DNA of 64,000 bases from Caulifigura coniformis (GTDB lineage: Bacteria > Planctomycetota > Planctomycetia > Planctomycetales > Planctomycetaceae), in assembly GCF_007745175.1 (NCBI RefSeq), contig NZ_CP036271.1, positions 2,621,814 through 2,685,813 of the forward strand. The letters are read 5' to 3'. The first letter of the stretch is position 1, and every line of letters begins with the position of its first letter. Positions 3,181-19,532 of this stretch are shown here, piece by piece. The translations under genes and the position numbers were made by a program. The notes beneath the pieces were generated by a model. That model had not been told where the DNA came from. It saw only the letters and a list, made by a program, of their open reading frames with translations, and did no database searches.

Positions 3181-4533
3181 TTACAGGCAGCGCAGAAACG
3201 CGGTCAGGTCCGCTTTCTCTGCTCCCGTCAGCCGGGTTCCCAGAACGACGTTGAAGAACTCGACCGTGTCCTCGATCGTCATCAGACGGTCATCGTGCAG
3301 ATACGGCGCGGAGTCTTTCAAGCCTCGCAGCGGGAACGTCTTGATCGGACCGTCGGCCGAGGCCATCCGCCCGTTGATCATCTTCGGTTTGAAGAACCGT
3401 TCTGTCTGCAGGTTGTGCATCAGGTTGTCGGTGAAGTACGGACCGGAATGGCAGACCGCGCACTGGGCCTTGCCGTGGAACAGCGCCTCACCGCGAAGCT
3501 CGCTTTCGGAGGCTTTCACCGAGTCGAGCTTCCCGAGGACGTTCAGCTTCGGGGCCGGCGGGAAGTCGAGCAGCTCCTGGAACTCGGCCATGTGATGCAC
3601 CTGGCTGCCGCGCTCGAGGGGACTGATCCCCTTCTTGGCCGCAGTCATCGGATCGCCGTCGAAATAGGCGGCCCGCTGCTCGAACTCGGTGAAGTCTTCC
3701 ACCGTTTTCAGCGCCCGCTGGGAACCAAACAGCCGCTGAATATTCACCCCGCGGAGCGAAGGAGTGTCGATCCGATGTCGATGCTCGTTGGGCCGGATAT
3801 CGCCCACGGTGTGCGTGGCCGCGTTCGTATGGCCGTTGACGTGGCAATCGAAACAGCTGACGCCCAGCGAGGCAGCCAGGGAACGCCGGTCATCCGTCGC
3901 GTTAAACTGCTGCTGCGGGAACGGAGTGACCAGCAGCCGCAGGCCATCCAGTTGTTTCGGATTCAGGCAGTCCTTGAACAACTCGTAGTAGTTGGCCGTC
4001 GTGACCAGCTGTCCTTTGGAAACATCCCCCAGGTCGGGACGGGTCGTGAGGAAGATTGCCGGCGGGAACTCGGCGAGCATGTGGTCCGGGAGGTCGTAGT
4101 CGAGATCGAACCGGGTCAGGTCTCGACCAGTCTGCTTCTTGATCTCGTCGATTGTCGATTTGGGAAAGACCATTCCCCCCGCCTCATGGTGCGGATGGGG
4201 AAGCGGATAGAAACCGGCCGGCCAGAGGTCTTTGGCTTTGATCTCAGCCGGCGACATCGCCGCCAGCTGGTCCCAGGTGCCGCCCGCCGGAAGCTTGACC
4301 CGCACGCCCCCCTGGACGGGCTTCCCGCGCGTCGTGGTGACGCCCGCGGCTGGCTTGTTCGACAAGTCGTAGCGCTCTTCAAGGAGCTGCTTCTGCCGCT
4401 CGGCGAACTTCGGTTTGTCGGCGGTCGTCTGTTTGACGACCGCGTCGAATTCGGGATCAGCGAGGGCCAGCGTCGTCAGGGCTGCCAGGATGGCCGGCGC
4501 CAGCAGAACCATGTGCAGGGGCTTGCGCAACAT
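3181..4533 (-). CDS. Di-haem cytochrome c peroxidase-like protein
   Basis: This 450-residue protein begins with a clear signal peptide (residues 1-25, ending LALA before DPEFD). Two haem c attachment motifs are visible: CFDCH at 227-231 and CAVCH at 358-362, the latter in a CHSGPYFTDN context. A late segment (LRGLKDSAPYLHDDR, then TIEDTVEFFN) is typical of the C-terminal part of bacterial di-haem cytochrome c peroxidases and MauG-like proteins. The protein should be exported and carry two covalent haems; whether it reduces peroxide or oxidises another substrate cannot be told. It appears monocistronic, with a terminator just after it. Confidence 0.85.
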   Translation of the reverse strand: MLRKPLHMVLLAPAILAALTTLALADPEFDAVVKQTTADKPKFAERQKQLLEERYDLSNKPAAGVTTTRGKPVQGGVRVKLPAGGTWDQLAAMSPAEIKAKDLWPAGFYPLPHPHHEAGGMVFPKSTIDEIKKQTGRDLTRFDLDYDLPDHMLAEFPPAIFLTTRPDLGDVSKGQLVTTANYYELFKDCLNPKQLDGLRLLVTPFPQQQFNATDDRRSLAASLGVSCFDCHVNGHTNAATHTVGDIRPNEHRHRIDTPSLRGVNIQRLFGSQRALKTVEDFTEFEQRAAYFDGDPMTAAKKGISPLERGSQVHHMAEFQELLDFPPAPKLNVLGKLDSVKASESELRGEALFHGKAQCAVCHSGPYFTDNLMHNLQTERFFKPKMINGRMASADGPIKTFPLRGLKDSAPYLHDDRLMTIEDTVEFFNVVLGTRLTGAEKADLTAFLRCL

Positions 4534-4675
4534 TGTCGTTCTCCATGCGATCGCGATGCGACAGGGACAGTAGCGATGGCTTTATGGTATCTCCGACTTT
4601 TCGTGGAACAGCCCTGTTTCGGCTAATACCTCCAATAATGGATTTGCATGTCGCGCGACTGAGGAAAGGCGAGCC

Positions 4676-5020
4676 TCACATCTGTTCCAGCGTTTCGCGC
4701 AGGACCTGCGCGCTGTTGTGCACGTCATCTTTCGCCGCGTAGACGAACGTCACAGTTCCCTCGCTGGTTCGTTGCTTCAGAAGCGCCAGTAGATCGGCCT
4801 TCTTCTTCAACTCCGCGCGGTACCGCTTCTGGAACTCTGTCCACTTCTCCACGTCGTGGTTGAACCACTTGCGGAGTTCCGTGGTCGGCGCGAGGTCCTT
4901 GAGCCACAAGTCGATCGCCAGGGTCTCCTTGCGGACTCCGCGGGGCCACAGACGTTCGACGAGGATTCGCAGCCCGTCCCGCGGCGAGGCCTCTTCATAA
5001 GCACGCTTCAACCGGATCAC
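4676..5020 (-). CDS. DUF488 family protein (YeaO-like)
   Basis: A 114-residue cytosolic protein with the family signature: an N-terminal IRLKRAYE segment, the G-x-R-I-L-V-E-R-L-W-P-R-G motif at about residues 16-28, L-K-D-L-A-P around 41-46, W-F-N-H-D near 52-56, and a C-terminal T-F-V-Y-A-A-K-D strand. Length matches the family. The biochemical role of DUF488 proteins is not established. It starts about 80 bases past the end of the NHL-type gene, so co-transcription is possible. Confidence 0.85.
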   Translation of the reverse strand: MIRLKRAYEEASPRDGLRILVERLWPRGVRKETLAIDLWLKDLAPTTELRKWFNHDVEKWTEFQKRYRAELKKKADLLALLKQRTSEGTVTFVYAAKDDVHNSAQVLRETLEQM

Positions 5021-5097
5021 CGGAAACTCCTCCGGGCACGAGGCGGACGGCTTTCACCGCGCGGCAGGTCGCGACATTTGTCGCGTCCGCGAATCCC

Positions 5098-6105
5098 TCA
5101 GTTCTTCACCCGCACGAGCTTCATGATCCGACCCGAGACGTTCCAGTCCTGGACGTACAGGTTCCCGTCCTTGTCCCACGAGGAGCCGTGAGTTCCGCTG
5201 AAGATGCCCTCGATCCACTGATCCTGCGGGATGGCGTAGCTCCTTCCCTTGGCCGGATCGGGATTGTGGCCGAGAACGGCCATGATCGTATTGCTCTTGT
5301 CGAGGATCACGACGCGGCCGTGGAGATCAGGCACTGAGACGTAGTCCCCCTGGATGGACGCGGACGTCGGCATGCCGAGGCCGGTAATCACTTCCTCGAT
5401 GAAGTTGCCGTCGAGGTCGTAGTGCAGCAGCCGGCCCTTCGGTTCGTGGTTCCGGTCGCAGATCAGGAGCCGTGGCGGCGTGGAGCGCGTGTCGAGCACC
5501 ATCCCGTGACAGGTCTTGAACTCCTTCAGTCCGTTGCCGGCGACGCCGAAGTGCTTGAGGTACTTTCCGTCCTTGTCGAACTTGAAGATGCGATTGCTGG
5601 CATAGCCGTCGGCCAGAAAGATGTCACCGTTGGGAGCCACCGTGATGGCCGTTGGATTGAACTTCTCCGGTTTCGGACCGGCTTCTTCGGGATACGTCAG
5701 CCGGAGCGCAATGGCGCCGTCCTGGGCATTGAACTTGATCCCTTCGCGGGCGTTGTTGCGGGCGCCGTACAGGAACTCGCCTTCCGCCTCGTCCCGGATC
5801 TTGAGGTCGTGGATCATCGTGTATTCGTCGGTGATGAAACGGCGGAGCACCTTGCCTTCCGGGTTGAAGACGACCACACCGAAGTTGGCGCTGACATAGA
5901 TGCTGCCGTCCTTGCCGACCGCCACGCCGCCGTGCGTTCCCTTGGGGCCGAGCTGCGGCTTGCCTGCGTCATCCAGTCCCCAGCCGGGAACGGTGTCGAA
6001 AGTCATGATGCCGCAGCCCATGCGAACGGGCTCAGCCTTTTCCGCGGCGGGCAGCGAAGCCGCGAATCCCAGAATCAGACCGACAACTGCAGAACTCGAC
6101 CGCAT
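5098..6105 (-). CDS. Exported NHL-repeat / six-bladed beta-propeller protein
   Basis: About 335 residues from the ATG at 6105, which I prefer because AGGT sits a suitable distance upstream; an ATG at 6111 and a longer reading from 6159 are also open. After a signal peptide (SAVVGLILGFAASLPAAE) come repeated blades with the pattern V-A-P-N-G-D-I-F-L-A-D-G-Y and F-D-K-D-G-K-Y-L-K-H-F-G, typical of NHL/SMP-30-like propellers. A final blade reads W-D-K-D-G-N-L-Y-V-Q-D-W. Such proteins are common in planctomycetes and often bind or act on small molecules in the periplasm. The ligand cannot be read from sequence. Confidence 0.85.
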   Translation of the reverse strand: MRSSSAVVGLILGFAASLPAAEKAEPVRMGCGIMTFDTVPGWGLDDAGKPQLGPKGTHGGVAVGKDGSIYVSANFGVVVFNPEGKVLRRFITDEYTMIHDLKIRDEAEGEFLYGARNNAREGIKFNAQDGAIALRLTYPEEAGPKPEKFNPTAITVAPNGDIFLADGYASNRIFKFDKDGKYLKHFGVAGNGLKEFKTCHGMVLDTRSTPPRLLICDRNHEPKGRLLHYDLDGNFIEEVITGLGMPTSASIQGDYVSVPDLHGRVVILDKSNTIMAVLGHNPDPAKGRSYAIPQDQWIEGIFSGTHGSSWDKDGNLYVQDWNVSGRIMKLVRVKN

Positions 6106-6216
6106 GTTCATGACCTGGCGCCTGATCGGAGAGTGTCGAAACGTTGCAGCGGCCAACATCGCAGAACCCGGCAGGAAGGCAAGCGTCGGACTTCCCCCGA
6201 ACGCGTCACTTCCATC

Positions 6217-6351
6217 TCACCATCTGATATCGCGCAGTGCAGCGAGCACGCGAAATGCGACCATGATCAGCCCTGTCGCGACAAGCGTCATGAATGGCAG
6301 GAGCGGCCACGACAGCAGAAACAGCACGCAAAGATCGACGATCGATTCCAT
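6217..6351 (-). CDS. Membrane microprotein, 44 residues
   Basis: A short frame with ATG at 6351 and TGA at 6217-6219. An AAAAGGG stretch lies at the usual ribosome-binding distance. The product (starting MESIVDLCVLFLLSWP, ending ALRDIRW) is hydrophobic from residue 4 to about 38, with Arg residues only near the end, consistent with one or two membrane passes. It resembles the neighbouring 36-residue protein in size, start (M-E/G, then V) and an A-T-x-x-V/I motif. It is a probable distal member of the beta-lactamase-fold hydrolase transcript. Function unknown. Confidence 0.55.
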   Translation of the reverse strand: MESIVDLCVLFLLSWPLLPFMTLVATGLIMVAFRVLAALRDIRW

Positions 6352-6473
6352 AGTCCAACCCTTTTGAATCGACTCTCACGAAGGAGATTCAGGGCGGCGG
6401 TCGTCAGCTCGCACAGAAGCCTCGCTCACCCCGGTGGCCAGGTGCTAGACCCAAGTTTGTCCACGAACGGCGC

Positions 6474-6584
6474 TCAACGCGTTGCGATGAGGAAGCCCGC
6501 GATGACAACCGCAGATGTTGCCAATGCGGCAAGCGGGAAGATCCCGATGATGATCAGGAACGCAATGACGACCCATTCTCCCAT
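6474..6584 (-). CDS. Membrane microprotein, 36 residues
   Basis: ATG at 6584, TGA at 6474-6476, with a GGGAGAGA ribosome-binding sequence nine or so bases upstream. The product (MGEWVVIAFLIIIGIF, then a second hydrophobic stretch ending in a single Arg) is almost entirely apolar and would sit in the membrane. It lies 60 bases past the stop of the serine hydrolase gene and 120 bases before the 44-residue microprotein on the same strand. Function unknown. The strong ribosome-binding site is the main reason to believe it is translated. Confidence 0.6.
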   Translation of the reverse strand: MGEWVVIAFLIIIGIFPLAALATSAVVIAGFLIATR

Positions 6585-6645
6585 GCCGATCTCTCCCGCG
6601 CTGGACTGCCCAGGCCGGGTCTTGAACCGTCGGGCGGGATGATCT

Positions 6646-7788
6646 TTAACCACGAATCGCTGCGGTGATCGCGTTGGACAGCTTCACGATTGGCGAGCGA
6701 TCTTTCTCGACCGGCTGAGACGACAGGATCACCGCGGCTGTCTGGTTCTCGCGGTTCATCCAGAACAGCGTCCCCGTCGCGCCCCAGTGACCAAAAGCGG
6801 AGGCCGGCAACAGGTCGCTCAGGCAGGCCGGATGTGCCGGCCAGTTGAGCCGCCATCCATAGCCCCACGGGCGCGTCCGGCGATCGGCTTCGGGAACGTC
6901 CGGGAAGTCGTCCAGTCGGTTTGTGGTGGAAAGACTCGCCGTTGCCGGCGAAAGCACGCGAACGCCTCCCAGCGATCCGTCGCCGAGCATCATCGCACAG
7001 AATCTGGCGAGATCGCCGGCCGTCGAAAGCATTCCGCCCCACGGAGCGCCGAGCTGCTGCCAGTATCGACTGTTCCAGTTCCAGTCGTTCCCGCCCGCCA
7101 TCTCGCCGGGAACGCGAATCTCGGCGACAGGACTTTCCACGATCGGACGCACGTCCCCCAGGCTGGTCGACGTCATCCCGAGAGGATCGAAAAACGTTTC
7201 CTTGAGAAACCGGCCGCACGAGATACCAGAGACCGATTCGATGATCTCCCCCAGCAGTGCGTATCCGAGGCTCTGGTACTGCACTCCCCGACCCGGCGGA
7301 AAATCGAGCCCGATCGCGCACGCGCCGTTGACGAACTCCGCCAATGGAGCGTGCTCTTTGCGCAGGGGAACATTGTTCGGCAGTGAATCGGGGAGGCCCG
7401 AGGTGTGTGTCAGCAGGTGACGGACGGTCGTCGGACGTTTTGCAGCGTCGCGATACGCGGGGATGAGGTCCCGGACCCTGTCGTTCAAACCGATGCGTCC
7501 CTGCTCGACCAGCGTTATCAGGCCCATCGCCACGACCGGCTTGGTCAGGGACGCGACAACGAACCGGTCGCCCGGCTCGACCTTCGCGTCAGCATCCGCC
7601 AGGCGCCGCCGGCCGAAGGCAAGCGGCGCGATGCACCGATTGCCCCGCACGACGCACAATGACAGGGCCGGCAGGAGATCCCGGCCGGTGAGTTCCTGAC
7701 AAAGGTCCAGCACCCGCTGCCAGCGGTCGAAATCGATACCGCATTCGCCGACGGACGCCACCTTCAGCCCACTGCCATCCCCAGTCAT
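6646..7788 (-). CDS. Serine beta-lactamase-fold hydrolase (class C / PF00144 family)
   Basis: 380 residues. The S-x-x-K nucleophile motif is seen as S-L-T-K in VVASLTKPVVAMG (around residue 80). The Y-x-N-like position is in the YQSLGYALLGEIIE segment, and the third motif is H-W-G-A-T-G near residue 335. An H-L-L-T-H-T-S-G-L-P stretch between them is diagnostic of the family. No signal peptide is visible, so it is probably cytosolic. Most planctomycete members act as esterases or D-amino-acid peptidases rather than antibiotic-degrading enzymes, and the substrate is not predictable. Its ATG overlaps the stop of the upstream STAS gene by four bases, indicating translational coupling. Confidence 0.88.
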   Translation of the reverse strand: MTGDGSGLKVASVGECGIDFDRWQRVLDLCQELTGRDLLPALSLCVVRGNRCIAPLAFGRRRLADADAKVEPGDRFVVASLTKPVVAMGLITLVEQGRIGLNDRVRDLIPAYRDAAKRPTTVRHLLTHTSGLPDSLPNNVPLRKEHAPLAEFVNGACAIGLDFPPGRGVQYQSLGYALLGEIIESVSGISCGRFLKETFFDPLGMTSTSLGDVRPIVESPVAEIRVPGEMAGGNDWNWNSRYWQQLGAPWGGMLSTAGDLARFCAMMLGDGSLGGVRVLSPATASLSTTNRLDDFPDVPEADRRTRPWGYGWRLNWPAHPACLSDLLPASAFGHWGATGTLFWMNRENQTAAVILSSQPVEKDRSPIVKLSNAITAAIRG

Positions 7789-8135
7789 GCCTGGTCGTTC
7801 CGCCGCGCGCTGAAATCGATTTCGTGAATCGGCATCAGTCGATTGAGATTGGTCGTCTCGAGCACTTCCCGCACATCGGGCGAGGGGTTGTAGAGATGCA
7901 CATTGACCCCCAGGCCACGCACGGACGCCATCAGGCCCAGGAATCCGCTGGGGATCAGCCGCACACCCGTGAGATCGAATCCCAGGGTCTTCGCTTTTGC
8001 GGACTGCAGCAGCTTGACGAGTTCTTCCCGGCAGAGCGCCAGGTTGATGTCGTCCAGCACATCACGATTGCCAAAGCCGACCACCGTCGTCGGGCCCGCA
8101 TCATAGACATCCAGAATCGCATCGCTTGTTGGCAT
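7785..8135 (-). CDS. STAS-domain protein (anti-sigma factor antagonist-like)
   Basis: 116 residues from the ATG at 8135 (MPTSDAILDVYD); a longer reading from 8180 adds a basic stretch that does not fit the domain. The fold pattern is that of a STAS domain: N-terminal beta strands, an N-R-D-V-L-D-D-I-N loop, a central L-G-F-D-L-T-G-V strand followed by I-P-S-G-F-L-G-L-M. The Ser in that last segment occupies the place where SpoIIAA-type antagonists are phosphorylated. It probably regulates a partner kinase or sigma factor, but none is adjacent. It overlaps the hydrolase gene downstream by four bases. Confidence 0.8.
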   Translation of the reverse strand: MPTSDAILDVYDAGPTTVVGFGNRDVLDDINLALCREELVKLLQSAKAKTLGFDLTGVRLIPSGFLGLMASVRGLGVNVHLYNPSPDVREVLETTNLNRLMPIHEIDFSARRNDQA

Positions 8136-10477: not shown

Positions 10478-10621
10478 AGAGGTCAGAGGCCGGACGTCAG
10501 AGGTCAGTGATCTTCTGTCGGGCCTGACTGCGAATGACTGAGGACCGGGTACTGAGGACTCAGTACCGCCTCCACCCCGAACACACCTCCACCACACATA
10601 AGCTCCCGGAGCACATCACTC
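10478..10621 (+). repeat. groES-groEL spacer with short direct repeats and a perfect palindrome
   Basis: AGAGGTCAG occurs at 10478-10486 and again at 10499-10507. A 20-base perfect hairpin, GGTACTGAG-GA-CTCAGTACC, lies at 10548-10567 about 55 bases before the groEL start. No T-run follows it, so it is unlikely to be a simple terminator. It could set the groES:groEL ratio by attenuation or mRNA processing. Confidence 0.5.
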
Positions 10622-12241
10622 ATGGCCAAGATGATTGCCTTTGACCAGGAAGCCCAGGAAGCGATGCGTCGCGGCGTCTCGAAACTCGCCCGCGCCGTTC
10701 GCGTCACCCTCGGCCCCAAAGGTCGCAACGTCATCCTCGAAAAGTCGTTCGGTTCGCCGACCGTCACGAAGGACGGCGTCACCGTCGCCCGCGAAATCGA
10801 ACTGACCGACAAGTTCGAAGACATGGGCGCCCGCATGGTTCGCGAAGTCGCCTCGAAGACCTCGGACGTCGCCGGTGACGGCACGACCACCGCGACCATC
10901 ATGGCCGAAGCCATCTACAACGAAGGCCTCAAGGCCGTCGTCGCCGGCGTCAGCCCGCTCGAAATGAAGCGCGGCATGGATAAGGCCGTCGCCGACATCA
11001 CCGCGAAGCTCAAAGACGCGGCAATCAAGTGCGACAAGAAGGAAGCCATCGCCCAGGTCGGCACCGTCGCCGCCAACGGCGACAAGACGATCGGTGAAAT
11101 CCTCGCCAACGCGATGGAACAGGTCGGCAAGGACGGCGTCATCACCGTCGAAGAAGGCAAGAGCCTGACCACCGACTTCGAAGTCGTCGAAGGCATGCAG
11201 TTCGACCGCGGCTATCTGTCCCCCTACTTCGTCACCGATCCGCAGTCGATGGAGTGCGTCCTCGAAGACGCCTACGTCCTGGTGCACGAAAAGAAGATCT
11301 CGTCGATCAAGGACCTCGTCCCGGTTCTCGAGAAGGTTGTCAACAGCGGCAAGCCGCTGCTGATCATCGCCGAAGAAGTCGAAGGCGAAGCCCTCGCGAC
11401 TCTCGTGATCAACAAGCTCCGCGGCACGTTCAAGATCGCCGCCGTCAAGGCTCCTGGCTACGGCGACCGCCGCAAGGCCATGCTGCAGGACGTCTCGATC
11501 ATGTGCGGCGGCCAGGCCATCTTCGAAGACCTCGGCATCAAGCTGGAAAACATCCAGCTGACCGACCTCGGTCGCGTGAAGAAGGTCGTCATCGACAAGG
11601 ACAACACGACCCTGATCGAAGGCGCCGGCAAGACGGCCGATATCAAGGCCCGCGTCGACCAGATCCGCAAGGAACGGGAAGGCTCGAGCAGCGACTACGA
11701 CCGCGAGAAGCTCGATGAGCGGATCGCGAAGCTCTCCGGCGGCGTGGCCCAGATCAACGTCGGGGCCGCCACCGAAAGCGAAATGAAGGAGAAGAAGGCC
11801 CGCGTCGAAGACGCCCTCCACGCGACCCGTGCGGCTGTCGAAGAAGGCATCCTCCCCGGCGGCGGCGTCGCTCTGCTTCGCGCCAGCACCGCGGTGAAGC
11901 CCGGCGAACTGACCCACGACGAAGAAGTGGGTTACAACATCATCCGCCGCGCCTGCCGCGCTCCGCTGACGCAGATCTCCAACAACGCCGGCAAGGACGG
12001 CTCGGTCATCTGCGAGAAGGTCTCGGAGATGAAGGGCAACATGGGTTACAACGCCGCGACCGACACCTACGAAGACCTCGTAAAGTCGGGCGTCATCGAC
12101 CCGGTGAAGGTCACCCGCACCGCCCTCCAGAACTCGTCGTCGGTCGCCACCCTCCTGCTCACCAGCGATGCCCTCATCGCCGAAGCGCCGAAGGACGACC
12201 ACCACGACAGCAAGAATGGCGGCGCTGACGACATGTACTAA
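10622..12241 (+). CDS. groEL: Chaperonin GroEL (60 kDa)
   Basis: 539 residues. The N-terminus ([15 protein letters not shown]) carries the nucleotide-binding loop, and D-G-T-T-T-A-T around residues 86-92 is the ATPase motif with its catalytic Asp. The apical domain contains [10 protein letters not shown], and the equatorial C-terminal part holds [12 protein letters not shown]. The tail is [14 protein letters not shown], not the Gly-Gly-Met repeat of the classical housekeeping GroEL. Planctomycetes often carry several groEL copies, so other loci may exist. A strong terminator follows. Confidence 0.97.
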
Positions 12242-13756: not shown

Positions 13757-16135
13757 GTGTCGGCGGGGCGCGGGACACGAACTCTCGGGGCCGAGAGTTC
13801 GTCGGTTGCAAAGGGAGGGGCGACGTTGCTTCAGCGTCGGGGCCAACTCGAGCACGGGGTGAACCGGCATGGACTTGCTGGTTCAGGATCAATCCCGCAC
13901 GGCGCAACCGGGTCGCAACGCCGATCCGCCCTCGCCGGGAACGTGCGCACCTCGGAACGCGAAGCGGTGGCGGACCGCGGCGCCAAGGCAGGCACGCTCC
14001 ACATTCCGGGACTGACGGATCTCTGGTCCGCGACGAAGGGCGATCCGCGGATCATGATTGCCGTCCTGGATGGTCCGGTCAGCCTGGCCCATCCTGCTTT
14101 CTCCGGCGCTCGCCTGAGCGTGGCTGGAGTGCACGGCGAGGCAACCGGCGCCTCGGCCGCGCACGGGACGCATGTCGCGAGCGTGATCTTCGGCCAGCAT
14201 GTCGGGCCTGTCGCGGGGATTGCTCCGAATTGTCGCGGCGTGATCATCCCCGTGTTCAAGGACGGAGCGGACGGGCGAGTCGCGCCCTGTTCACAGATCC
14301 GCCTGGCGGAGGCCATCACTCTGGCCGTGGAATTCTCCGTGAAGAATGGGGCGGACTTTCTTGTCATCAATATCAGCGGCGGTGAGTTCACTCCGTCCGG
14401 AGAAGCTCATCCCATCCTGGAGAAAGTCGTTCGTGGATGCGATCGACGAAAAGTGTTGATCGTTGCTGCGGCAGGGAATCAGGGGTGTGACTGCCTGCAC
14501 ATTCCTGGCGCGATTCCATCTGTTCTGGCCGTCGGCGCCATGAACTCGGAAGGTCATCCGCTCGAGTTCAGCAATTGGGGAGCCGCGTACCAGGCCCAGG
14601 GTGTTCTGGCCCCGGGTGAAAACATCCTCGGAGCATCTCCGTCCGGCGAGGTCGCTGCCCACACAGGAACAAGCTATGCGACTCCCATCGTGGCGGGCGT
14701 CGCAGCGCTGCTGCTCTCGTTGCAGCTGCGCCATGGAATTCATCCCTCGGCTGCCAGCGTACGTGAGTCGATTCTCGGGTCCGCCTTGGGATGTCAACAC
14801 CGGCCGGTGAAGGATTGCCGCCGACTTCTGGCAGGACGGCTGAACATTCCCGGTGCAATCGCACTCTCACTCAGCAAAGGGCAGGCTTCGATGGACTCAC
14901 ACCTCGAATTGGGATACAGCGGAACTCCAGGCAATGTTCTTCCACAGGGCGATGGGGTGGCCGCAGACGTGACGACGTCTGCGGCGTCAATTGAGACGCC
15001 CCTGCCATTCTCTCAAGTCACGTGTTCGTCGATCGAAAACTCGATGCCGGAACTGGTGATGCCGTCCGATTGTGGATGCGGCGGAAAGAAGACCTCGGCT
15101 CCCTCCTTCCAGAAGGTCTACGCCATCGGGAAGCTGAGCTTCGACTATGGCACGCGGCAGCGGCGTGAATACTTCGCGAACCGGATCGGCGGCGATCCGG
15201 AGAACCATACCAATCTCTTTAACTACCTCACGGCCCGGCCAGTAACAGTCGACGACGCCGGGACTCCCATCCAGGCGTTCGACGCCACCGGCAGGCCGAT
15301 TCTCAACGACGCGGGAAATCCGCTTTACCTCGGTCTTCCACACTACACGATCCTGAACGGTCCCCAGTTCGCCAACCGCACGGACGTCACCGCGCTGACC
15401 TGGATTCTCAAGATCGATGAGACGCCGATCTATGCCATCAATCCCATGGGGCCATTTGCGTTCGAAACCCACGACACTCTGACGGCCTTTCTCAGGAGTC
15501 AACTGCCGCCCCCACCTCCGCCTGAAGATCCGGAAGGACGCCGGCCCCGAAGAGGCCGAAGAGAGGAGCCAGTGCAACTCCCGGGGATCGTCTACGGAGA
15601 GGGAGTCGAACGGATTGCCGTGCCGGGCGTGATCATTGGGGAGACGCGTCTGTACACCGGTGAGCAGGTGCCGGTCCTGGCGCCCGATCACCGCGGAATT
15701 GCCAACTGGACGACGGACGCGTTGATCGACGCCATCACCGCTCACTTTCCGGCCGGTGGCGACGATCTGGGAGGACGCGGAGCCATCGAGATGACCAGGG
15801 ACATCCTGGACCGGATGTATGAGCTCACGAGAAACCTGGGCATCTCGTCACGAGATCGGGCGCTCAACTACGCCGCGACCGATGCGCTGCAGCTCCAGGG
15901 CATCCTGGCCGACCCCGCCAACCAGTCGCGTTTCGTCGGAATGGAACTGGACACGATCGAGGTGGAGAAGAGTCCGATCTGCCGGCCGGATTACGACTGC
16001 TGGGACGTGGTGATCATCTTCTTCAATCCGGACAACCTCCAGCAGGCGCGTCGCGGAATCCGGTACACGATCGATGTCAGTGATGTGATGCCGCACATCC
16101 TGTCCGGATCACAGAGGGTCTTCACGTTGCGCTGA
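13757..16135 (+). CDS. PatA/PatG-like subtilisin protease of a probable RiPP cluster
   Basis: 792 residues from the GTG at 13757; the true start is uncertain (an in-frame GTG at 13859 or later is possible, since the conserved domain starts near residue 80). The S8 catalytic triad is complete: Asp105 in A-V-L-D-G, His136 in H-G-T-H-V-A, Ser306 in G-T-S-Y-A-T-P, with the oxyanion Asn241. The segment G-C-D-C-L-H-I-P-G-A-I-P-S-V-L-A-V-G-A-M and the domain opening I-P-G-L-x-D-L-W are characteristic of the cyanobactin maturation protease (PatA/PatG) family. After a Cys-Gly-rich linker (CGCGGKK at 439-445) comes Y-A-I-G-K-L-S-F-D-Y-G-T-R-x-R-R, typical of the extra domain found in such proteases. 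No signal peptide. Three small Cys-rich genes follow at once, which I infer to be its substrates. Confidence 0.85.
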   Translation: MSAGRGTRTLGAESSSVAKGGATLLQRRGQLEHGVNRHGLAGSGSIPHGATGSQRRSALAGNVRTSEREAVADRGAKAGTLHIPGLTDLWSATKGDPRIMIAVLDGPVSLAHPAFSGARLSVAGVHGEATGASAAHGTHVASVIFGQHVGPVAGIAPNCRGVIIPVFKDGADGRVAPCSQIRLAEAITLAVEFSVKNGADFLVINISGGEFTPSGEAHPILEKVVRGCDRRKVLIVAAAGNQGCDCLHIPGAIPSVLAVGAMNSEGHPLEFSNWGAAYQAQGVLAPGENILGASPSGEVAAHTGTSYATPIVAGVAALLLSLQLRHGIHPSAASVRESILGSALGCQHRPVKDCRRLLAGRLNIPGAIALSLSKGQASMDSHLELGYSGTPGNVLPQGDGVAADVTTSAASIETPLPFSQVTCSSIENSMPELVMPSDCGCGGKKTSAPSFQKVYAIGKLSFDYGTRQRREYFANRIGGDPENHTNLFNYLTARPVTVDDAGTPIQAFDATGRPILNDAGNPLYLGLPHYTILNGPQFANRTDVTALTWILKIDETPIYAINPMGPFAFETHDTLTAFLRSQLPPPPPPEDPEGRRPRRGRREEPVQLPGIVYGEGVERIAVPGVIIGETRLYTGEQVPVLAPDHRGIANWTTDALIDAITAHFPAGGDDLGGRGAIEMTRDILDRMYELTRNLGISSRDRALNYAATDALQLQGILADPANQSRFVGMELDTIEVEKSPICRPDYDCWDVVIIFFNPDNLQQARRGIRYTIDVSDVMPHILSGSQRVFTLR

Positions 16136-16171
16136 TCAGTCGTCACCGAACCCACTCTCTGGAGGACTGAC

Positions 16172-16375
16172 ATGAAGCTTCCCAATCTGACCCCCGCCTC
16201 CCGCCGCGGCGAGAGACCGGCAGTCGAACACCTGAAAGACTCCATCAACGGAATCGTGCCGTCCGCGAGCGTCGTCGGATTTGGCAGCTGCCAGACCAGG
16301 TGCTTCGGCGGATGGTGCCGACAATGTTGTCCTGGATCTGACTGCGTGACCTACGCCGATCCCGGCCAGTCCTGA
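16172..16375 (+). CDS. Putative RiPP precursor 1, six-Cys peptide (67 residues)
   Basis: ATG at 16172 preceded by GGAGG at ideal spacing. The N-terminal two-thirds (MKLPNLTPAS and a charged stretch to about residue 35) looks like a leader. The C-terminal part holds six Cys at residues 40, 44, 49, 52, 53 and 58, with Gly, Trp and Pro between them. The M-K-L-P start and six-Cys tail recur in the next two genes. It begins 36 bases after the PatA-like protease stop. The call as a precursor is inference from size, composition, repetition and position; no modifying enzyme other than the protease lies directly alongside. Confidence 0.7.
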   Translation: MKLPNLTPASRRGERPAVEHLKDSINGIVPSASVVGFGSCQTRCFGGWCRQCCPGSDCVTYADPGQS

Positions 16376-16386
16376 AGCTGAGTGCT

Positions 16387-16409
16387 GGAATGAGAGCGTC
16401 TCTCGTTCC
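16387..16409 (+). terminator. Stem-loop after precursor 1
   Basis: GGAATGAGAG-CGT-CTCTCGTTCC: ten-bp arms with one G-T pair and a 3-base loop, starting 11 bases after the stop codon. No T-run, so it may be an mRNA-stability or partial-termination element. Confidence 0.5.
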
Positions 16410-16442
16410 GAAGTGTCGTTGGACCCCAAAAAGGAGGGTGAG

Positions 16443-16631
16443 ATGAAGCTTCCAAAACAGACTGTGAACCGGGATCGCGGCAACGAAACCGCGCCGCAAA
16501 GCACGGGGGGCGTCGCCCCACAGTCGTTATGCCAGATCGGGTGCAATCTGGCACACGGCGCGTGCATCGCGGCCGGCATTCCTCCAGCGGTCTGCAACGC
16601 AGGGCTCGCCGCGTGCCTCAGCGCCTGCTAG
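16443..16631 (+). CDS. Putative RiPP precursor 2, six-Cys peptide (62 residues)
   Basis: ATG at 16443 with a near-perfect AAGGAGGGTG ribosome-binding sequence; the frame is open further upstream, but this site decides the start. Leader-like residues 1-28 (MKLPKQTVNRDRGN and so on) are polar. Six Cys follow at residues 30, 34, 41, 51, 58 and 62. The two outer pairs each have the C-x3-C spacing known from helical-hairpin peptides, and the core is rich in Ala, Gly and Ile. It shares the M-K-L-P-K start with its neighbours. Function as a protease-matured peptide is inferred. Confidence 0.7.
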   Translation: MKLPKQTVNRDRGNETAPQSTGGVAPQSLCQIGCNLAHGACIAAGIPPAVCNAGLAACLSAC

Positions 16632-16703
16632 CCAGGCCGCAGGAACCAGCGCAACGGGCTCAACGTCGGCATGAACGTCGCCTGAGCGCCAGCGCTTTCC
16701 CGT

Positions 16704-16732
16704 CGTGCCGCGGTTCAAGCAGCCGCGGCACG
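16704..16732 (+). terminator. Stem-loop between precursors 2 and 3
   Basis: CGTGCCGCGG-N9-CCGCGGCACG: a perfect ten-bp, fully GC-rich stem. It lies 72 bases after the precursor 2 stop. No T-run; possible attenuator or RNA-stability element. Confidence 0.5.
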
Positions 16733-16809
16733 CGGTCTTGTCATCCGCCGCGTGGTCGTCGCGCGCCCGGAGGACAGTCCCTATTGGCCATCCATCGAGA
16801 GAGGTTCCT

Positions 16810-17016
16810 ATGAGGCTGCCGAAGTTTTCGATGAACGTCGCTTCCCGGCAGGGATCCGATCCGTTCCAGGCCCCCGGGCGGAACGAATCCGGCCCTGCAG
16901 CGGAGACCGCCAACGGTCTGTCGCCCTCGGGCGAATGCGGCTGCGGTGGACGCCGGCACTGTCTGGGGCCCTGCGTCCTGGGAAGCTGCCTGGGAACATG
17001 CATCCCCAACGTGTGA
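16810..17016 (+). CDS. Putative RiPP precursor 3, six-Cys peptide (68 residues)
   Basis: ATG at 16810 preceded by AGAGAGG; the ribosome-binding site and the conserved M-R-L-P-K start fix it, although the frame opens earlier. A polar leader-like part runs to about residue 41. The tail has six Cys at 43, 45, 51, 55, 60 and 64, giving a regular C-x3-C-x4-C-x3-C with Leu-Gly between. Its E-C-G-C-G-G-R-R motif strikingly resembles the CGCGGKK linker of the upstream protease, which may mark a shared recognition or processing feature. Precursor role inferred. Confidence 0.7.
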   Translation: MRLPKFSMNVASRQGSDPFQAPGRNESGPAAETANGLSPSGECGCGGRRHCLGPCVLGSCLGTCIPNV

Positions 17017-18055: not shown

Positions 18056-18961
18056 TCAGGGGGCGATCAGCAGGTCGATGAGGCTGGTCGTCAACGGTAG
18101 GCCGGTGCGTTCTTCGAAGCCGAGAAACATCGGGCTGGGATTGGCCTCCAGCAGGACGTATCGCCCATCGACTGTCCTGCGGAGATCTATGCCGGTCCAC
18201 ACCAGGCCGAGCACGGCCGCCGCCCGGCGGCAGAAGTCCGCGACGTCAGAGGGAAGTGCTATCAGTTTGAGCCGTGCGGACGGATCGTCGCGATAGTCGA
18301 GGGCCGAAGTCTCGAATTCGCAGGCGTGCAGGGCCTCGCCGGCGATGAACACGCGGACGCTTTCGCCGACAATCTCCTCCTGCAGGGCGATCGGCGCGAT
18401 CGCCAGGTTCCGCAGGCGCTGGCTCGAGAGATCCTTGAGTGCCAGGCGCCTCGCGTGAGCGCCTCCCTGAACCGGTTTGGAGATCACCCGCGAATGCCGG
18501 CGCACAAACTCCCGCACCGCGTCGGGGTCGTTCGTCACGAGCGTGGGAGGAACCGGAATCCCGGCTGCCGCGAGGATCGCCAGCTGGGCCGGCTTGGTCT
18601 GATGGGATTGATAGGCGGCCCAGGAATTCACCCACCGCGCCGGAAGCTGGATCAACAGCGACTCGAACAGACTTCGTGAATCGTTCTGGGCGATGTACGA
18701 CTGGTCGCTGTCCGGGAGTCGCGGCGACAGGACGCCAAAGTAGTTTCGCCAATAGACCGCGCTGATCTCTTCGAGCGGAATCGTCCGGCCGTCTTCGATC
18801 GTGATGAAGCCGCTGCCGGTGTCTGGAGACCAGCTGATTCGCAGGTTTTGCGGAAACCGGCGGCTGTCGAGCAGGAAGGCCGGTCGTCCGATTCGGGCAA
18901 GAAACTGCAGAACATGCATCGCATGTTCGTCGTCTTCTCCGCCGAGAATGAGGATGGGCAT
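18056..18961 (-). CDS. RimK/MvdD-like ATP-grasp ligase (graspetide synthetase candidate)
   Basis: About 301 residues from the ATG at 18961 (MPILILGGEDDEHAMHVLQF); four more residues are possible from 18973. The N-terminal pre-ATP-grasp domain ends in S-A-V-Y-W-R-N-Y-F-G. ATP-grasp elements, numbered from the longer start, follow: R-V-I-S-K-P-V-Q-G-G at 162-171 with the ATP-binding Lys, L-Q-E-E-I-V-G at 197-203, V-R-V-F-I-A-G, W-T-G-I-D-L at 259-264, and metal-binding L-L-E-A-N-P-S-P-M-F near 274-283. The family joins carboxylates to hydroxyls or amines. Members that make microviridins and other graspetides form ester or amide cross-links. Its divergent neighbour encodes TT-x4-EE repeats, which strongly suggests that role here. 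Confidence 0.88.
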   Translation of the reverse strand: MPILILGGEDDEHAMHVLQFLARIGRPAFLLDSRRFPQNLRISWSPDTGSGFITIEDGRTIPLEEISAVYWRNYFGVLSPRLPDSDQSYIAQNDSRSLFESLLIQLPARWVNSWAAYQSHQTKPAQLAILAAAGIPVPPTLVTNDPDAVREFVRRHSRVISKPVQGGAHARRLALKDLSSQRLRNLAIAPIALQEEIVGESVRVFIAGEALHACEFETSALDYRDDPSARLKLIALPSDVADFCRRAAAVLGLVWTGIDLRRTVDGRYVLLEANPSPMFLGFEERTGLPLTTSLIDLLIAP

Positions 18962-19045
18962 CGCTGATTCCACCGGTTGACCGCGTGTCTGGACGCGCTA
19001 CGATCAATCCTGCGGCTGGCGAATTCGCGTGCCTGGATCAGGACA

Positions 19046-19532
19046 ATGCAACATCCATTTGATGGCGTGATTTTACCCGTTGACGACGTCGGGACGGAGA
19101 GAACTGTCGAGGGGAGGTCGCCGCGACGCGGCTTTTTCAAGACAGCCGCCGCCTATGCTCTGGGGCTCCTGACATTCGGGGTTGCAGGGACCGCATTCGC
19201 GCGTGACGGATGGCGTCACCGTTCGGGCGGACGCCACTACTACTCCCAGCCGCGGCGATATTGGAGTTCGCCGCGTCACGACGTACGCCGTCGGCGAGGA
19301 AGGGGGAGGCCGGGTGACGACGTATGCCATTGGTGAGGAAGGCGGCGGCCGGGTGACAACGTACGCCGTTGGAGAGGAAGGCGGCGGAACGGTGACCACC
19401 TACGCCGTCGGAGAAGAAGGGGGAGGCCGCCCACCAGTACAGGCGACGACTTACGCGCTGGGCGAAGAAGGTGGGGGTGGCAGCGTGACGACCCAGGCGC
19501 TGGGGGAAGAAGGAGGACGGACTCCGCGTTGA
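19046..19532 (+). CDS. Graspetide (plesiocin-type) precursor; leader and core repeats in different frames
   Basis: The leader frame starts at ATG 19046 (MQHPFDGVILPVDDVGTERT), continues through a Tat-like or hydrophobic segment (S-P-R-R-G-F-F-K-T-A then a Leu/Ala/Gly stretch to about residue 52) and a Tyr/Arg-rich spacer. It then reads out of frame. One base forward, the other frame encodes six copies of a 12-13-residue unit, five beginning V/A-T-T-Y-A and one T-T-Q-A, each holding TT-x4-EE followed by Gly-rich spacers, and ending at TGA 19530. That frame has a stop at 19170, so it cannot include the leader. TT-x4-EE is the ester-linking motif of plesiocin-group graspetides. The gene therefore seems to carry one extra base (or two missing) between about 19173 and 19275, whether real, recoded or a sequencing error. 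The ATP-grasp gene is divergent, 84 bases away. Confidence 0.8.
19275..19520 (+). repeat. Six tandem TT-x4-EE-GGG coding repeats
   Basis: Units of about 36-39 bases encode VTTYAVGEEGGG or close variants (Val/Ile/Leu at the sixth position; the last unit has Gln for Tyr). The spacing between units 4 and 5 is longer. Synonymous differences between units (GCC ATT, GCC GTT, GCC GTC, GCG CTG) show selection on protein rather than recent DNA duplication. Confidence 0.85.

Follow-up and report, generated by a model that had tools for sequence, protein, structure and literature searches.

A PatA-type protease with a cyanobactin C-terminal domain beside six-cysteine small proteins in Caulifigura coniformis: a candidate YcaO-free, leader-directed maturation system

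A 64,000-nucleotide stretch of the Caulifigura coniformis genome (contig NZ_CP036271.1, positions 2,621,814 to 2,685,813; hereafter, the window) encodes a PatA-type S8 protease with a C-terminal cyanobactin domain of unknown function (DUF), followed on the same strand by three small open reading frames (ORFs) with six-cysteine cores. We consider it likely that these genes form a system for YcaO-free, leader-directed maturation of disulfide-rich mini-proteins by the PatA-type protease, with the cleavage, the disulfides and the mature products predicted from sequence. The protease is a member of the PatA/PatG family; the system as a whole is not a member of the cyanobactin pathway.

A PatA-type protease and three small cysteine-rich proteins

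The relevant features of the window are as follows.

13757..16135, + strand: PatA-type S8 protease with C-terminal cyanobactin DUF, 792 amino acids (aa) counted from GTG 13757
14051..14785, + strand: Peptidase_S8 catalytic domain, residues 99-343 (PF00082, E 8.7e-27)
15053..15085, + strand: substrate-like linker motif L-V-M-P-S-D-C-G-C-G-G, residues 433-443, predicted self-processing site
15113..15505, + strand: PatG_D domain, residues 453-583 (PF18047, E 6.3e-10)
15791..16105, + strand: PatG_C domain, residues 679-783 (PF18065, E 8.2e-28)
16172..16375, + strand: predicted precursor 1, 67 aa; leader MKLPNL..., junction GIVPS (16250-16264), six-Cys core
16443..16631, + strand: predicted precursor 2, 62 aa; leader MKLPKQTVNR, junction GVAPQS (16509-16526), six-Cys core
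16810..17016, + strand: predicted precursor 3, 68 aa; leader MRLPKF, junction GLSPS (16915-16929), six-Cys core from GECGCGG

An earlier note on this DNA described the enzyme as PatA/PatG-like. The complete S8 triad and the GCDCLHIPGAIPSVLAVG segment that it cited are both found in the protease ORF, and YAIGKLSFDYGT, which it assigned to an extra domain, opens PatG_D. The triad residues D105, H136 and S306 are invariant in the alignment of related proteases (alignment A6). The PatA/PatG family model TIGR03895 scores the protein 531.3 bits, compared with a curated cut-off of 421.05, and the S8 triad and C-terminal PatG_D/PatG_C DUF of the family are present as well. GTG 13757 is probably not the start of the gene, because GGGAGG lies upstream of TTG 13826, the likelier start, and similarity to PatA begins at about residue 82. 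The protease has a single match in its own genome at E 0.001.

The closest relatives in the Protein Data Bank (PDB) are PatA-type (4h6w, 4h6v, 3zxx and 3zxy, 287-306 bits), led at 306 bits by 4h6w, which bears the name N-terminal cyanobactin protease; scores fall to 163-166 bits for the PatG chains 4h6x, 4aks (165) and 4akt. Residues 616-784 match 4uvq, a structure of the PatG DUF. Judging by the alignment with the PDB chains, we take the macrocyclisation insert of PatG to lie between the catalytic Asp and His. These residues are 31 positions apart in the window protease (Asp105-His136) and 33-38 apart in 18 other proteases (of 21 rows, L056 and L059 being left out), and the roughly 40 extra residues between the Asp- and His-bearing stretches of 4h6x have no counterpart in the window protease. 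The insert is described in PMC4663559 as two helices present in PatG and absent from PatA. The PDB ranking, the absent insert and the 4uvq match identify the window enzyme as a PatA-type leader peptidase carrying a cyanobactin DUF. The earlier label thus stands as to family membership and falls as to a PatG-type macrocyclase, the enzyme being of the type that removes leaders.

A protease that both cuts and joins the ends, as PatG does, would yield backbone-cyclic Cys-rich peptides, bacterial analogues of cyclotides. The window protease falls in the same NCBIfam family as PatG, and PatGmac is reported, in the title of one paper, to cyclise kalata B1. We nevertheless regard this outcome as highly improbable, given the preference of the catalytic domain for PatA over PatG and the lack of the Asp-His insert; moreover, 26 of the 31 precursors assembled below end 0-6 residues past the last Cys, which leaves little room for a PatG follower. 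A PatG-type macrocyclase was rejected as a candidate on the missing insert and the missing follower.

All three small genes reported by the earlier note, with six Cys each, are present downstream of the leader peptidase, and its recurring C-x3-C spacing occurs once in the first ORF and twice in both the second and the third. A strong ribosome-binding site had been claimed for each; two ORFs have one (TGGAGG and AGGAGG), and one has the weaker AGAGG. Counterparts are encoded at related planctomycete loci, for precursor 1 in L031 (7973-8176, 38% identity; alignment A5), for precursor 2 in L031 (33%) and L064 (40%; alignment A3) and more distantly in L067 and L115, and for precursor 3 in L031 (32%) and L064 (41%; alignment A4). 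The order of precursors 1-3 is kept in L031, and that of precursors 2 and 3 in L064. In L115, the precursor-2-like core follows the other, split-type leader described below.

Recurrence of the pairing in planctomycete genomes

Of 397 genomes surveyed in the class, 17, among them that of the window, encode PatG_C, with 18 occurrences between them; none of 14 control genomes does. We compared 19 loci, namely the window, L031 and 17 fetched regions, among which L064 and L066 have a partial or broken protease and L062 is of the split type. These were scanned with a script for ORFs of 45-135 aa that begin with ATG or GTG, open with M-x(1,2)-[LIMV]-P and carry four or more Cys beyond their first third. 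The script returned 30 leader-bearing Cys-rich ORFs within 3 kb on the protease's strand (104,020 bp), distributed over 16 of the 19 loci, a tally that is an enrichment count rather than a blind test because the criteria were written after the loci had been viewed. The same script found three ORFs on the opposite strand of these loci and two in 157,099 bp further away. The 20 control regions, four of which lie on short contigs and are short themselves, yielded ten ORFs in 670,094 strand-bp. Chance ORFs are ruled out by these counts by strand, distance and control region. An adjacent ORF starting MHFP in L058 was spotted by eye and stands outside the script count. The earlier note had named protease homologues that never neighbour small Cys-rich genes as grounds for abandoning its proposal, and the 16 loci show the opposite.

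The note had also proposed profile searches of the peptides. The precursor 3 profile matched two of the 397 class genomes, both at PatA loci; that of precursor 2 matched eight, strongly at the PatA loci of G000 (the window genome), G339 and G403 and weakly in five other genomes. The search is a limited test, since the strong matches are rows of the profiles themselves and scoring was confined to 15 candidates in each genome. G001, a genome of the same genus without PatG_C, was examined for an empty site; the best matches of the flanking genes there lie on separate contigs, one of them at only 31% identity.

A common leader and junction precede divergent cores

For analysis of the N-terminal regions, 31 class precursors were assembled: 30 picked by eye and the one from L058, with the L067 candidates and another ORF of L053 excluded. 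The consensus of the 30 reads MxLPxxxxxVxR...GVxPS, with Arg at column R12 in 90% or more; M1 and P4 are constant by choice of precursors, and neither the Arg nor the junction was selected for. We searched for the junction [VLI]-x-P-[SAQ] from residue 16 up to the first Cys beyond residue 25. It occurs in 23 of the 31 class precursors, compared with 2.1 expected when these stretches are shuffled; for split-type precursors, the corresponding figures are 7 of 12 and 0.7. Consensus and junction counts together argue for a leader-core anatomy. One MKLP leader (L031:8895-9272) is followed by a phospholipase A2 domain (PF06951, E 6.7e-12; 46.2 bits, gathering score 34), which indicates that leader and core are separate modules. 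With the recurrence of the loci, the shared leader and junction support the earlier suggestion that the peptides are substrates of the protease, as far as can be judged from sequence.

Small Cys-rich proteins that adjoin a subtilase might alternatively be its inhibitors or regulators, as knottin-like serine-protease inhibitors encoded beside their target would be; many protease inhibitors are of similar size to these ORFs. We find this very unlikely, because the N-terminus and junction are shared while the cores diverge, and because one such leader precedes a phospholipase A2 domain. An inhibitor family would be expected to conserve its reactive part.

Among the cores, those of L055 and L065 share the framework C-x6-C-x7-CC-x5-C-x6-C. 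An AlphaFold2 model of precursor 3 alone has a mean predicted local distance difference test (pLDDT) score of 62, with two short strands and values of 70-81 in the core blocks and 45-56 in the leader blocks. An Acanthaporin-like fold was considered for the L115 precursor after a weak match (E 0.077) and dropped, as the A7 profile did not confirm it against the PDB. Phospholipase A2 apart, the small Cys-rich proteins of these planctomycete loci carry no Pfam or NCBIfam name.

The protease-DUF linker and split-type loci

The segment between the protease domain and the DUF resembles the predicted substrates. A pattern comprising [VLIMA]-x-P-[SAG] and then C-x-C at most 14 residues on matched in this segment of 15 of 22 fused proteases, with 0.2 expected from shuffles; the set comprised 16 class loci and 6 plasmid loci, without L062, L064, L066, L072 and L075. 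P436 and C439-G443 are invariant across the window, L031 and L032. The matches of L052, L054 and L063 are loose, and near misses by eye include MVLPAGCGCGG of L031 and GVRPSCPDCGG of L074.

A survey of the phylum found PatG_C in 7 of 392 genomes, adding five loci outside the class (L112-L116). In all five, an S8 protease ORF of 287-313 aa is separate from the DUF, and 1-5 Cys-containing ORFs follow on the same strand. In L116, the DUF ORF has PatG_D and PatG_C and the protease ORF Peptidase_S8 alone; in L112, the DUF is spread over two overlapping frames. The precursors of these loci, chosen by a looser pattern and by eye, have a leader that differs from the class leader and mostly reads M-(N/K)-[IM]-P-G-F-x-A-E.

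Relatives of the L116 split DUF occur on five plasmid records, from Mesorhizobium (71.7% identity), Sinorhizobium (69.1%), Streptomyces (62.6% and 46.1%) and Photobacterium (26.9%). Both rhizobial records have leader-bearing Cys-rich ORFs after the split DUF; a pattern search found none in the Streptomyces and Photobacterium records L119, L120 and L121, and L120 has a leaderless 46-aa coding sequence (CDS) with six Cys. Separate protease and DUF genes are encoded in L112-L119. The split form is one clade (100/100) in both trees, one of which has the L031 row cut at the wrong place and the other lacks seven rows, the window's included. The substrate-like linker motif and the separate protease and DUF genes elsewhere suggest that the fused enzyme may separate itself by cutting its own linker.

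A small ORF precedes the split DUF gene in L118 (4263-4424), L119 (4033-4245) and L120 (4164-4328); it contains I/L-G-L-G-D-V and G-I-x-P-C-G-G-C and is common to Sinorhizobium and Streptomyces plasmids. On other Streptomyces plasmids, the peptides encoded after the protease have leaders such as LQMPQQVPPVDR and a GVEA stretch. No leader-bearing Cys-rich CDS was found among the annotated genes inspected at plasmid loci L068, L069 and L075, unannotated ORFs not having been scanned.

Modifying enzymes and gene neighbourhoods

The earlier note saw no YcaO gene in the window, and this absence extends to the whole 6.76 Mb single-contig genome, in which PF02624 had no match. YcaO is encoded in 7 of 18 PatA-bearing genomes, never on the PatA contig, several of these contigs being short. 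The YcaO heterocyclase is optional in cyanobactin clusters, according to PMC4663559. Neighbours were surveyed as ORFs of at least 150 aa within 5 kb of 18 loci (89 of 96, after removal of seven overlapping with precursors, the protease or other ORFs; E 1e-5). The 89 proteins matched 155 Pfam families, the commonest being Pkinase (six), and no modification or transport family was among the 25 commonest.

In L031, the ORF of the PatA-type protease (4490-7954) also encodes, in frame, an N-terminal domain of the cysteine desulfurase family (TIGR01977, 418.8 bits, cut-off 377); the fused protease has 1154 aa, other protease ORFs compared having at most 872. Radical S-adenosylmethionine (SAM) domains are encoded near three of the five split-type loci (L112, L113 and L116). 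The radical-SAM protein of L113 (4645-5685, - strand) lies about 4 kb downstream of the split DUF gene and is closest to the model of the YydG peptide epimerase (96 bits, cut-off 300), that of L116 is closest to heme-pathway models (346 bits, cut-off 500), and that of L112 is TatD-linked, scoring above the cut-off.

The desulfurase fusion and the radical-SAM neighbours raise the possibility that the cysteines or core backbones are further modified by an enzyme nearby or elsewhere, which would make the products a class of ribosomally synthesised and post-translationally modified peptides (RiPPs) with non-disulfide cross-links or other changes. This seems unlikely: the desulfurase fusion was seen only in L031, the radical-SAM enzymes vary by locus, two of them resembling other pathways and none scoring above a peptide-maturase cut-off, and no modifier is among the 25 commonest neighbour families of the class loci or, as YcaO, in the window genome. 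The radical-SAM finding did lead us to raise the probability of such modification slightly and to lower that of leader-directed, disulfide-only maturation by as much. The claim of a new RiPP class is not borne out, there being no sign of modification beyond possible disulfides and there being Streptomyces plasmid relatives whose leader-bearing peptides lack Cys-rich cores.

Elsewhere in the window, an ATP-grasp enzyme (18056-18973, - strand) is close in sequence to the peptide maturases SAV_5884, MvdC and MvdD, though below their cut-offs. Divergent from it, at about 19050-19532 (+ strand), are six TT-x4-EE repeats, such as TTYAVGEEGGG, which we take to be a plesiocin-type graspetide motif. 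In G001, an ATP-grasp enzyme 57% identical to that of the window lies beside a single frame that contains both a leader, MQHPFEGILP, and TT-x4-EE repeats; in the window, the repeats are out of frame with the leader-like stretch.

A model of precursor maturation

We propose that three precursors are made, each with a short leader (M-x-L-P...V-x-R) that would be recognised by the DUF, the protease or both. The PatA-type domain would then cut at G-[VLI]-x-P-S and free the cores, whose cysteines could pair as disulfides to give knottin-like or helical-hairpin mini-proteins. Export would probably precede this pairing. By cutting itself in the linker, at a motif of this kind, the enzyme would give rise to free protease and DUF, as encoded by the two-gene bacteria.

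Several observations weigh against this model. The script, junction and linker patterns were all composed with the sequences in view, and the latter two have exceptions: the junction pattern missed 8 of 31 class and 5 of 12 split-type precursors, and 7 of 22 linkers fell outside theirs, the clear misses being L067 and the true cyanobactin PatA of L070. The leader of the L067 ORF, one of the 16 positive loci, is doubtful, and neither the script nor a further search found a precursor in L051 or in L066, where the protease is in pieces. The strong profile matches were built into the profiles, and the five weak precursor-2 matches (E 4e-4 to 1e-3, some with internal stops) come from genomes that lack PatG_C. 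Streptomyces plasmids L071, L073 and L074 encode leader-like peptides without a Cys-rich core. No exporter was found among the 25 commonest neighbour families, and none of the matches points to a named fold for the six-Cys cores, three queries against PDB sequences having gone unmatched. Finally, nuclear magnetic resonance published in PMC4259220 saw no binding of the PatG DUF to the cyanobactin precursor, which counts against the DUF as leader receptor.

More broadly, the recurrent pairing of protease and leader-bearing peptides suggests that disulfide-rich peptides may be made in this way more widely. We tentatively suggest, with somewhat less than even confidence, that PatA plus DUF forms a horizontally mobile maturase with a general role in processing small proteins that bear a leader. 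In this view, the DUF would be the leader receptor, the fused enzyme would free itself at a substrate-mimicking linker, and cyanobactins would be a branch that added a heterocyclase and a macrocyclase. Such a maturase would span Planctomycetota, Cyanobacteria, Actinomycetota and Alphaproteobacteria, with substrates ranging over Cys-rich mini-proteins, phospholipase A2 and non-Cys-rich peptides. The DUF of PatA/PatG was left without a role in the 2014 structure paper (PMC4259220), and we found no later assignment in the open-licence PubMed Central literature. The recurring loci of protease, DUF and leader-bearing peptide make that role directly testable, and the simple leader-protease pair could be tried for producing Cys-rich peptides.

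Comparison with cyanobactin and other systems

Our searches of the open-licence PubMed Central literature turned up no publication on PatA loci that lack YcaO and encode Cys-rich precursors. Neither TIGR03678 (PatE) nor TIGR04220 (PatB) was matched at E 1 by any of the 30 class precursors scanned (PatC was not searched for), and no recognition sequence I (RSI)-like heterocyclase site was seen in the precursors.

Some likenesses to cyanobactin components were nonetheless seen. In the Gloeothece cyanobactin cluster of L070, PatB (10559-10774) starts MRLPKLAPPVKR, like planctomycete leaders and in particular the MRLPKLSPAVARR of L054; from this start, PatB may itself be a PatA substrate. PatB is called non-essential, with its role unassigned, in PMC4259220. 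The patellamide leader model TIGR03678 has a weak match (E 0.059) to residues 3-16 of MNLPIQSKPIFR..., a precursor encoded on a Nostoc plasmid. The PatB start, the Nostoc match and the Streptomyces leaders are leads to a possible common ancestry rather than proof of it.

The six-Cys frameworks are shared with knottins and helical hairpins, with the disulfides here predicted from sequence. With cyanobactin PatA and the PatG DUF (4uvq), the window system has in common the catalytic domain, the DUF and a G-[VLI]-x-P-S-like junction before the core; GIVPS, GVAPQS and GLSPS resemble, without being identical to, the RSII-like PatA cut-site consensus G(L/V)E(A/P)S given in PMC10885120. In contrast to the cyanobactin pathway, it has neither YcaO/PatD nor a PatG macrocyclase; there is one protease match in the genome rather than separate A and G proteases, the cores are long and Cys-rich, and most precursors lack an RSIII-like follower. 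Unlike cyanobactin PatA, the window protease bears a substrate-like motif in the linker to its DUF.

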